Of a DNA stretch of 40,321 bases, positions 5,239 to 22,903 are shown piece by piece. The stretch comes from an uncultured Clostridium sp. (lineage in GTDB: Bacteria > Bacillota > Clostridia > TANB77 > CAG-508). The stretch spans positions 1 through 40,321 of the forward strand of contig CAMSMU010000009.1 of assembly GCA_947061115.1 (NCBI GenBank). The letters are read 5' to 3'. Under the pieces are notes generated by a model. The model saw nothing but the letters and a program-made list of their open reading frames with translations, was not told the origin of the DNA and ran no database searches. Position 1 is the first letter of the stretch. Every line of letters begins with the position of its first letter. The translations under genes and the position numbers were made by a program.

Positions 5239-5475
5239 AAAAAAAGCTACTGCCCATAGGACGAATAGCCGTTGTACCACCTAAATTTATTAATTTACTA
5301 AATTAACCTCTATAGTTATAACGTAACAACCGCTTTTCTTACTACTACTTCGGAAAAGAACCTCAAAAGTGAAATTTCAGTAAATACCATATAGTACATT
5401 TCAGCCACGCACCTCTCTTTAATATGTTTACTATTTACTTACTTTGCTTTTTCTCAGGTTACTTTGTAATTCTAT
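5239..5475 (-). promoter_or_regulatory. T-box riboswitch leader of pheST
   Basis: The conserved T-box AGGTGGTACAACGG is present at 5269-5282 on the minus strand. It is followed directly by a terminator hairpin (5246-5269, GCTATTCGTCC/GGGCAGTAGC) and seven T (5239-5245). The Stem I region lies upstream (about 5330-5460), with GAGAGGTGCG and the CCGAAGTAGTAG segment. Uncharged tRNA-Phe is expected to stabilise the antiterminator and allow pheS transcription. UUC triplets occur at 5360-5358 and 5373-5371; I could not decide which is the specifier codon. A TATAAT lies at 5481-5486. Confidence 0.92.
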
Positions 5476-19407: not shown

Positions 19408-20724
19408 TTATATTAAATATGGTAAAAATACATTTGCTAAACTTAAAAATATAAAAAAGCCTAATACATCTGTAACTGCTGTTAGAAATATTGTAGATGA
19501 TAATGCTGGATCCAATTTGATTTTTTTAAGTACTAATGGTATTAATGTTCCGCATATACCCGAAATAATTAAGTTTGCAATCATTGCTAATATTACTATT
19601 ACACCTAAATATATATTTCCATATATTATTGATATAATCGTCCCTGTTATTAATCCAATACTTGCACCATTTACAAAATCTAAGAATATTTGCTTTTTTA
19701 GTAAATGTATTGAATCTTTTAGCTCTACTTTTCCTATGGCTATATTTCTAATTATTATAGAAACAGTTTGAGTTCCTGCATTTCCTCCCATACCTGTTAT
19801 TATAGACATTATAGAAGATAATGCAACTACTTGAGATATTGTACTTTCAAAGTTTTTTACTGTCATAGATGCTAGAAAAGCAGTAATTAAGTTTATAAAT
19901 AGCCATGGTAATCTTAATTTTATAGATTCTACTAATGTGCTATCTAGTGTTTCCTCTTTTGAAACACCAGCTATTTGCAAAGCATCTTCTGTATGTTCTT
20001 CAACTATTACATCTAAGATATCATCTATTGTTATAATTCCTAACATTCCCATATTTTTATTTACTACTGGTATTGCTGTTAGGTCATATTTTGATGCTAT
20101 AAGTGATACTTCCTCCTGATCTGTTTCAGGCTCAACATATATAAAATGTTCGTTTGTTATTTCTTCTAGCTTATGATTCTCTGGTGCTACTAATATATCT
20201 CTTAGTTTAGCTGTACCTATTAATTTCTTACTTTTCACTACGAATATTGTGTCTATTAGTTCTGTTTTAGGAGCAATTTGCTTTATTTTTGCAATAGCAT
20301 CTTTTATTAATAACTTACTGTCTAATTTAATATATTCAGTAGTCATTATTCCACCAGCACAGTCTTCTTTATATCCCATTAATTGCTCAATGGTCTTTTT
20401 GTCGCCTTCTTTCATAAGGTTAATTAATTCTTTTGCTTTTCCTGCATTAATTTCCCCTAAAATATCTACTATATCATCTTTTGACATGTAACTGAATAAT
20501 TTTAAAATTCTATTATTATTTAAAATTTTTACTATTTTGAGTTGTGTTTTCAATTCTGACTCCTCTAATATCATTGCTAATTTTTCATCTTCTAGCCTTT
20601 CACACAACTCTTTTATTTCTTCGTAATTATAATCTGAAAGTTTTAATGCTAAATCAACTGTTGAAAGCTCGTCCAAATTTTCTTCTAATTCTAAGTCAAT
20701 TTCTTTATTTTCATTACTATCCAT
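19408..20724 (-). CDS. mgtE: magnesium transporter MgtE
   Basis: 438 residues. Helical N-domain (about 1-130), a pair of CBS domains (about 135-255, with GTAKLRDIL and GIITIDDILDVIVEE), a plug helix, and five membrane helices (about 270-438) containing the GMGGNAGTQTVS pore segment. It is a Mg2+-gated Mg2+ channel. A leader with a 32-codon ORF and a terminator-like hairpin precedes it (20725-20949), which suggests transcript-level control. Confidence 0.95.
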   Translation of the reverse strand: MDSNENKEIDLELEENLDELSTVDLALKLSDYNYEEIKELCERLEDEKLAMILEESELKTQLKIVKILNNNRILKLFSYMSKDDIVDILGEINAGKAKELINLMKEGDKKTIEQLMGYKEDCAGGIMTTEYIKLDSKLLIKDAIAKIKQIAPKTELIDTIFVVKSKKLIGTAKLRDILVAPENHKLEEITNEHFIYVEPETDQEEVSLIASKYDLTAIPVVNKNMGMLGIITIDDILDVIVEEHTEDALQIAGVSKEETLDSTLVESIKLRLPWLFINLITAFLASMTVKNFESTISQVVALSSIMSIITGMGGNAGTQTVSIIIRNIAIGKVELKDSIHLLKKQIFLDFVNGASIGLITGTIISIIYGNIYLGVIVILAMIANLIISGICGTLIPLVLKKIKLDPALSSTIFLTAVTDVLGFFIFLSLANVFLPYLI

Positions 20725-20781
20725 ATTTTCCCCCTTTTATTATTACTAATTTTAGAAGAAAATATATATGTTAAAATTATA

Positions 20782-20880
20782 TTAATCACTATTTTTAGGA
20801 ATATATAAAAAATGAGTGATTTTTCTATAATTTACGTTTTTCATATACATTTTCGACAGATTACACGAATCATCACTCAT
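20782..20880 (-). CDS. 32-residue leader ORF ahead of mgtE
   Basis: ATG at 20880-20878 with AGAGGTGAT as ribosome site; 32 codons, stop at 20784-20782, 57 bases before mgtE. The peptide starts M-S-D-D-S-C and continues as a basic, aromatic sequence with one late proline. Its first codons form one arm of a 12-bp stem, and codons for I-T-H-F form the other. Known mgtA-type leaders encode short peptides whose translation senses Mg2+; whether this one does is inference. It is also possible that it is simply a small protein. Confidence 0.6.
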   Translation of the reverse strand: MSDDSCNLSKMYMKNVNYRKITHFLYIPKNSD

Positions 20881-20883
20881 TTT
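20807..20883 (-). promoter_or_regulatory. terminator-like hairpin spanning the mgtE leader ORF
   Basis: AAAATGAGTGAT (minus strand 20883-20872) pairs perfectly with ATCACTCATTTT (20820-20809), with a 51-base loop and a tail of T to 20807. The left arm includes the leader ORF start codon, so translation and hairpin formation exclude each other. Confidence 0.6.
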
Positions 20884-20921
20884 ATCACCTCTTTTTACAT
20901 TATTAACTTTTTAATTATACC

Positions 20922-20949
20922 ATTATATGAATTTTTTTACAATAGTCAA
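20922..20949 (-). promoter_or_regulatory. promoter of the mgtE leader
   Basis: TTGACT at 20944-20949, 16-base spacer, TATAAT at 20922-20927, minus strand; a second TATAAT at 20914-20919. Confidence 0.6.
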
Positions 20950-21487: not shown

Positions 21488-22903
21488 ATGAAAAAAGCAA
21501 TTAAAATTTTAAGTATTGTTATGGCAATTGCATTAATAATTAACTCAGTTTGTTTAGCAGCAACTATGGTTAATAAAGGTAATGCAAGTATGTCATTAGT
21601 TGAGGATAATGTTTGTAATATTACATTTGGTCAATATGGTGAATTTCAAAAGAAGCTAATTAAATGTGATACTGAAAATAAAACAGTAGATATTAGTTTA
21701 ACTGCTAAAAATAAAGCTGAAAAGCTTGAAGATAAAAAAGCTGATGTAGTATTATTAATAGATTCTTCAAGAAGTATGTCTACAAATCAAGTACAAATTA
21801 ATGGTAAAACAACTACAAGAAAACAAGCTGTTCTTGATTCAGCTACACAATTGATAGACAAATTATTTGCAGCAAATTCTAATATTCAAATAGGTGTTGT
21901 AGAATTTGCAACAAGTACAGAAACAAACGACGAGGGCTTTACTATTGAAGGTACTGATAAAGATGCTAATATCGTTACAGAAAAATTATCTAATGATAAA
22001 ACTGTAATTTCATCTGCGTTAGAGCAAGTAGCTGCCAGTAAAATGGGTGGAAGAACTAATGTTGAAGTTGGTTTAGATGCAGCAAATTCTTTACTAAATA
22101 CTGAGAAAGATCCTGAAGTAGAAAAATATATTCTTGTTTTAACTGATGCTATACCTAATACTTCAAGAGGAGTTACAATGGATACTTATTCAGATAAAAC
22201 TGCTGTACCTACTAAAAATAAATTAGTAGAACTTAAAAACAAAGGTGTTAATGTCATATCTATGTTAATTAATATGACTGATGATCCAATAAATATATCT
22301 CAAGAAACTCCAAAGCCTACTTATAAACAAGTTGCTGAGAAAATATTTGGAACAACTACAGCTCCTACTTCTGGAAAAGTATACTATGTAACTGATAATG
22401 AAGTAGAAAATACTGTTAGTAATGAAATTTATGCAGACCTAATTCAAGTAAGTTATGAATTAGATAATATAGTTATTAAAGATTATTTTCCAAAAAATAT
22501 TATAGATAACTTTGAATATGCTGAACTTACTAAAGCTAGTCTTGGAGAAATAACTGCTACTGTAGATAAAAAGGATAATTCTATTACTTGGAAAATATCT
22601 AAATTAGAAGCTGGACAAACAGCTACATTCTCTTATAGATTATCTTTAAAAAATGAATTTAGCAGTGAAATAGTTGGTATAAAATTACCTACTAACCAAA
22701 ATGTTAAAATTACTTACGAAGAAGAAGGGAAACCTGGTTCAGCTGAAAATGATAAATGTCCTATAGTTGCTTTAGATTTATTACCTACAAAAGATATACC
22801 TCAAACTGGTAATTATACTATAATATATGTTGCTGGTATAGCTTCTGTACTTGTTGCTTTAGGAACTATAAGTTATGTTTATATAAAAAGAAATAGATTT
22901 TAA
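21488..22903 (+). CDS. sortase-anchored von Willebrand factor A-domain surface protein
   Basis: 471 residues. Signal peptide 1-25 (MAIALIINSVCLAA). VWA domain from about 85 to 320 with the MIDAS triad D92-x-S94-x-S96 (LIDSSRSMS), T in GGRTNVEVG and LTDAIPN. After an Ig/DUF11-like stretch (about 325-420) comes the wall-anchor: IPQTG at 437-441, a hydrophobic helix and a basic tail KRNRF. Likely cell-wall-linked adhesin or pilus-type subunit. No sortase or other pilin gene is in the window. Strong AAAGGAAG before ATG; terminator at 22916-22956. Confidence 0.88.
   Translation: MKKAIKILSIVMAIALIINSVCLAATMVNKGNASMSLVEDNVCNITFGQYGEFQKKLIKCDTENKTVDISLTAKNKAEKLEDKKADVVLLIDSSRSMSTNQVQINGKTTTRKQAVLDSATQLIDKLFAANSNIQIGVVEFATSTETNDEGFTIEGTDKDANIVTEKLSNDKTVISSALEQVAASKMGGRTNVEVGLDAANSLLNTEKDPEVEKYILVLTDAIPNTSRGVTMDTYSDKTAVPTKNKLVELKNKGVNVISMLINMTDDPINISQETPKPTYKQVAEKIFGTTTAPTSGKVYYVTDNEVENTVSNEIYADLIQVSYELDNIVIKDYFPKNIIDNFEYAELTKASLGEITATVDKKDNSITWKISKLEAGQTATFSYRLSLKNEFSSEIVGIKLPTNQNVKITYEEEGKPGSAENDKCPIVALDLLPTKDIPQTGNYTIIYVAGIASVLVALGTISYVYIKRNRF

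Follow-up and report, generated by a model that had tools for sequence, protein, structure and literature searches.

The 5' leader of the Mg2+ transporter gene mgtE in a gut Clostridia genome carries a short open reading frame (ORF), and this leader is probably a leader-peptide translational attenuator of mgtE, with acidic/proline codons at the start of the ORF serving as the sensor. It lies in a stretch of 40,321 nucleotides, referred to here as the window. The ORF family, its N-terminal motif, its specificity for mgtE, the helices of the leader and the mutual exclusivity of those helices were computed here.

Mg2+ sensing by leader peptides through ribosome instability has been described in enteric bacteria, in connection with P-type Mg2+ pumps (PMC8092293, PMC11282234). 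Since the MgtE channel is unrelated to P-type pumps, the same sensing across Clostridia would, if true, make it a recurrent principle, and it would show by what means Clostridia lacking an M-box could control Mg2+ uptake.

The mgtE leader and its close relatives

A sequence-only reading of the window had placed a promoter, a ribosome site and a 32-codon ORF starting M-S-D-D before mgtE, and all three were found (Table 1), the promoter being the joint best in the 3.1 kb scanned. The peptide begins MSDDS, with two acidic residues within the first five codons, as in mgtQ-type leaders, and without early proline (relatives start MSDDP, MGDDP or MEPHPEP). The window leader has no match to the M-box (RF00380) or any other Rfam family, and a terminator scan called no intrinsic terminator in it. 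Elsewhere in the window, a T-box leader was identified at 5254-5464 on the minus strand (RF00230, 107.6 bits), and the divergent neighbour of mgtE (21488-22903) encodes a surface protein containing a von Willebrand A domain, which carries a sortase-like motif (IPQTG) at its C-terminus and also shows a weak pilin-tip-like domain.

Table 1. Features of the mgtE leader in the window (positions are those of the window)
Feature	Position	Strand	Remarks
mgtE, Mg2+ transporter gene	19408..20724	-	Pfam MgtE_N, CBS and MgtE domains
Sigma-70-like promoter, TTGACT-16-TATAAT	20922..20949	-	11/12 consensus matches
Leader ORF Shine-Dalgarno, AGAGGTG	20886..20892	-	Retained in relatives
Leader ORF, 32 codons, MSDDSCNLSKMYMKNVNYRKITHFLYIPKNSD (MSDDS...)	20782..20880	-	Homologous leader ORFs in relatives
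Codons 2-5, S-D-D-S, site of the class-wide acidic/proline motif	20866..20877	-	
Segment 1, AAAATGAGTGAT, leader start region, partner of segment 3 (OFF)	20872..20883	-	
Segment 2, GAAAATGTATATG, leader ORF +27 to +39 (codons 9-13), partner of segment 4 (ON)	20842..20854	-	
Segment 3, ATCACTCATTTT, ORF codons 21-24, partner of segment 1	20809..20820	-	
Segment 3', TAAAAATAGTGATTA, other partner of segment 3 (ON)	20783..20797	-	p = 0.010, and folding
Segment 4, CATATATATTTTCTTCT, anti-ribosome-site strand, partner of segment 5 (OFF) or 2 (ON)	20754..20770	-	
Segment 5, AGGGGGAAAATATG, mgtE ribosome site and start codon, masked by segment 4	20722..20735	-	

Homologues were collected by searching for MgtE proteins at the level of genus, family, order and class, and their leaders were then read. 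A homologous leader precedes mgtE in seven other genomes of the family (L098/L007, L099, L101, L102, L103, L105 and L003; peptides MGDDPSNQLKIYINK, MSDGPSEHLKIHINK, MSEEPQSNNKKINII, MSEDSQSNHKKINMI, MSDDPLSNTKKINKI, MDDSLANGVKIYKIQ and MSDNSGYGPKKIYSN), Pro being usual where the window peptide has Ser, and two genomes from another family of the same order have leaders beginning MVDDST/MVEDAP. Five close mgtE homologues (L002, L097, L104, L124 and L125) are without such a leader. At L097 a region with an inverted repeat (CTAAACGAATAAAAAG...CTTTTTATTCGTTTAG) takes its place and may be an insertion.

What is conserved in these leaders is the start region, the codons and the simple helices. A covariance model built on six leaders recovers the two unseen and most divergent members of the clade (E 1e-6 and 3e-4) and matches a single site in the window's own genome. 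A genus scan with the conserved 16-mer TATATTTTCTTCTRAA was discarded, as it gave mostly chance matches, the relevant ones being mgtE leaders only.

Alternative helices and the position of the ribosome

Segment 1 can pair with segment 3 in the window at 12 of 12 positions (helix 1:3), with a start-region pairing energy that beats dinucleotide shuffles (p = 0.015); the whole leader fold reaches z = -2.2 against shuffles. The sequence-only reading had drawn this 12-bp stem from the start codon to the end of the ORF; the pairing at the start region stands, but the 3' arm occupies codons 21-24, and 24 nt separate it from the stop codon. Two further helices, which that reading overlooked, involve the mgtE ribosome site: segment 2 can pair with segment 4, the strand just upstream of that site (helix 2:4), and segment 4 can pair with the mgtE Shine-Dalgarno and start codon (helix 4:5). 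As helix 1:3 crosses helix 2:4, and helices 4:5 and 2:4 share segment 4, the leader has two alternative helix sets, and in silico the start-region helix is exclusive with the helix that frees the mgtE ribosome site.

In a six-sequence alignment, 92% of the cells of helices 1:3 and 2:4 are paired, against 40-56% when the helices are slid, and changes on both sides are found (for example CG/UA and AU/UA/CG, with AU/UA/CG compensation at 2:4); RNAalifold, given no structure as input, draws 1:3 and 4:5. The leader is thus conserved in related genomes with compensatory changes, a check that the sequence-only reading had set for itself and that its proposal survives. Helix 2:4 is significant in the window (p = 0.010) and in seven of the eight members of the window clade (p<=0.01), with a mean z of -3.6 in the clade and -0.26 in controls; six of these seven use a partner within the leader whose first nucleotide is +26 or +27. 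The local fold of helix 4:5 in the window has an energy of -10.4 kcal/mol against -2.9 kcal/mol for shuffled sequences (z = -4.1). Only some members of the window clade show significant pairing of the mgtE ribosome site with distant leader sequence. Segment 3' is seen in the window genome only, other local partners of segment 3 being present in relatives.

The effect of a ribosome on these helices was modelled by blocking a 30-nt footprint and refolding the leader, a thermodynamic calculation in which kinetics are ignored. The openness of the window mgtE site is 0.17 in the ribosome-free leader (fold 1:3 + 4:5) and rises to 0.59 when the P-site occupies codon 4 (fold 2:4 with a local hairpin, 3:3'); for P-sites at codons 11 and 22 the values are 0.15 and 0.24. 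In this folding model of the window, the mgtE site is opened solely by a ribosome on the first codons, and the claim that such a ribosome would open the start-region helix is likewise supported by it. Across the clade (n=8), a ribosome at codons 2-5 opens the site more than one at codons 9-14 (p=0.004), with no significant gain over the ribosome-free fold (p=0.125), and in four of the eight members the mask leaves the site no more open than in the ribosome-free fold. The mask effect is larger in 51 leaders than in 83 controls (p=0.0015), as is the difference between first and later codons (p=1.2e-5); outside the window clade the effect is modest.

These folds suggest the following switch. With the leader free of ribosomes, or with the ribosome past the first codons, helices 1:3 and 4:5 would form, and segment 4 would mask the mgtE Shine-Dalgarno and start codon, so that mgtE would not be translated (OFF). 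The usual toeprint distance puts the front edge of an early-codon ribosome near +26, just before segment 2. A ribosome held at acidic/proline codons 2-5, or repeatedly initiating and dropping off there, would therefore cover segment 1 up to about +26 and block helix 1:3, and segment 2 (from +27) would be left to pair with segment 4, releasing the mgtE ribosome site (ON). We infer that the leader ORF is translated, that ribosomes are unstable at these codons in Clostridia too and that Mg2+ is the signal; as to sign, since acidic/proline N-termini destabilise ribosomes at low Mg2+, as is known for MgtL, low Mg2+ would switch MgtE synthesis on.

The leader ORF could instead govern an intrinsic terminator before mgtE, the output being transcription, and this was the role that the sequence-only reading gave to the start-codon helix. 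A TTTTTT run does directly follow helix 1:3 in the window, but the helix encloses a 51-nt loop, the scan makes no terminator call there, and neither the run nor a terminator is kept in relatives. Terminator-like hairpins lie over segment 3 in L102 (GCUCAUUAUUUGAGC-UUUUUUU), L103, L105 and L052, and L126 and L127 have a separate terminator before mgtE; against this, a terminator-like hairpin occurs in only 20 of 60 leaders, over segment 3 in 13. What is conserved downstream is the masking of the mgtE ribosome site, and with the T-run and terminator unconserved, control of mgtE is most likely translational; transcription attenuation as the general mode seems unlikely, and the start-codon helix is not upheld as an attenuating terminator. 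An added transcriptional effect may occur in relatives with terminator-like hairpins over the segment 3 arm. The separate intrinsic terminator of L126 and L127 (CUAUACAAGUUCCUUGUAUAGUUUUUUU) has an arm that could base-pair with CUUGUAUAA, a stretch of the leader ORF; these two loci may therefore be under transcriptional control as well.

Acidic/proline leader ORFs across Clostridia

The motif rule was fixed on a first set of loci, in which the motif occurs in 24/71 upstream ORFs with a Shine-Dalgarno versus 21/616 controls (p 3e-14), before 144 mgtE loci, a few of them already encountered, were surveyed via Pfam PF01769. In this survey it occurs in 35/136 upstream ORFs versus 11/374 controls, an approximately 11-fold enrichment (p 2e-13, with start and Shine-Dalgarno sites called by simple rules and with p values, here as above, overstating independence because the loci are phylogenetically related), and 34 of the 144 loci are carriers. 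The leader consensus is M-D-[SA]-[GD]-P-[LS]-P (M-D-S-G-P-L-P type). As all four proline codons are used, it is the amino acid, not the RNA letters, that seems to be kept. A DNA pattern for MDSGPLP matched 11 times in 391 genomes, every time directly before mgtE (11/11), and the reversed pattern gave no match. These results bear out the proposal of a leader ORF that is specific to mgtE, begins with acidic/proline codons and is here independent of the M-box; those loci of the window's family that were tested for an M-box have none.

The rule overlooks related leaders such as MDAGSSSG. ORFs of this kind upstream of mgtE (MDAGSSSG, MDTGGSSA, MDGGSNGVGRR; L189, L196, L211, L215, L231, L244, L248, L264 and L280) have Asp at position 2, Gly/Ser runs and no early proline, and are possibly a second type of leader peptide.

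Of the 34 survey carriers, 85% have a significant start-region helix (mean z -3.6), as against 7% of controls, and many Watson-Crick pair types are found at equivalent helix positions across the leaders. Helix 2:4 is unsupported outside the window clade in the survey set; there it is segment 3, not segment 2, that pairs with segment 4 (at about -32 to -16 of mgtE) in 52-59% of leaders at p<0.05. In most other Clostridia, then, segment 3 would be the strand that draws segment 4 away. The mgtE-site hairpin outside the clade is weakly stronger in energy than in controls, and the Shine-Dalgarno paired fraction in the local-hairpin test does not separate cases from controls, for which reason we claim no general 4:5 hairpin outside the clade.

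The same switch could answer another signal, namely prolyl-tRNA supply, EF-P activity or general ribosome stress. Of 60 leaders, 47 have proline as residue 5, and it is frequent at residue 7 too; Salmonella mgtP has been read as a sensor of charged tRNA-Pro (PMC8092293). However, proline is missing from position 5 in the window member and in several relatives, which keep acidic residues, and the gene associated with the leader was always mgtE in the pattern test, which together leave such a signal improbable. A shade less probable again is coupling or occlusion, whereby a fully translated leader ORF would feed or block the mgtE site and the start helix would only throttle initiation on the leader. 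About 20 of 60 leaders do have their stop codon 12-19 nt before the mgtE start, within its Shine-Dalgarno region, and at several loci the distance is 12-17 nt; in the window, however, 57 nt separate the leader stop codon from the mgtE start, and helices 2:4 and 4:5 would lack a role. Although mgtE is the usual target of the M-box, and an M-box lies upstream in some relatives, a ligand-binding riboswitch (an M-box variant or a new Mg2+ aptamer) with an incidental ORF is very improbable, given the lack of an Rfam fit and of any conserved unpaired aptamer core in the leader alignment.

Returning to the Mg2+-sensing leader peptide, we rate at about even the broader proposal that leaders of the M-D-S-G-P-L-P family sense low Mg2+ class-wide in Clostridia and free mgtE, arose separately from MgtL/MgtQ, and are in some lineages stacked behind an M-box. 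An M-box was found upstream of an acidic/proline leader ORF at L133-L135, L146, L147, L197, L201, L202 and L214, and in the same order at L218, L246, L247, L273 and L274. These mgtE leaders are candidates for two tandem Mg2+ sensors and, if true, would combine two kinds, an aptamer and a leader peptide, on one mRNA.

Comparison with known leaders

Among openly licensed papers, none was found that describes a leader peptide upstream of mgtE in Clostridia; an earlier description elsewhere is possible. Two described elements came into consideration and were set aside: the Breaker-lab 'mgtE motif' is restricted to Thioalkalivibrio and differs in structure (PMC11109978), and uORF2 of the Mycobacterium tuberculosis M-box has a conserved proline but is read as specific to mycobacteria (PMC12810186). 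The M-box itself (RF00380) controls mgtE genes in Firmicutes and lies just upstream of the leader ORF in some Clostridia, but it is an aptamer with a terminator and is absent from the window.

In erm leaders, a ribosome held on the leader ORF frees the downstream site from an anti-ribosome-site strand. The Clostridia leader shares with attenuators of this type the leader ORF, the anti-ribosome-site strand and the release by a held ribosome (PMC11264731); erm leaders, however, answer macrolides, whereas the Clostridia leader has acidic/proline codons and serves Mg2+ uptake.

Closer parallels come from enteric bacteria. Ribosomes on MgtL, the leader of mgtA in E. coli and Salmonella, fall off at EPDP in low Mg2+, raising expression of the Mg2+ importer (PMC11282234). 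An acidic/proline N-terminal motif like that of MgtL is seen in relatives (L052 starts MEPHPEP), the window peptide being acidic and free of early proline, but MgtL acts on mgtA via a Rho-dependent terminator (PMC11282234), whereas the output here is the mgtE ribosome site, and both the transporter family and the bacterial class differ. Salmonella mgtQ is an 8-codon ORF before mgtB, whose acidic codons raise mgtB translation via alternative helices (PMC8092293). In its proposed workings the window leader is like mgtQ, although by position and gene it is neither mgtQ nor MgtL. Each is a short ORF that precedes the gene of a Mg2+ transporter and has acidic codons near its start, in both the start region pairs downstream and alternative helices mask or free the transporter ribosome site, and translational control has been reported for mgtQ; the mgtQ topology (1:2 + 3:4 versus 2:3) also equals that of most Clostridia loci (1:3 + 4:5 versus 3:4). 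The differences are that the transporter is MgtE here and the P-type ATPase MgtB there, that the ORF lies here in a 5' leader with its own promoter and there in an intergenic region, that it is about four times longer here, and that the anti-anti-ribosome-site strand of the window clade lies inside the ORF (codons 9-13). Taken with these likenesses and differences, the Clostridia leader appears to be an as yet unreported equivalent of the leader peptides that sense magnesium in Salmonella and E. coli.
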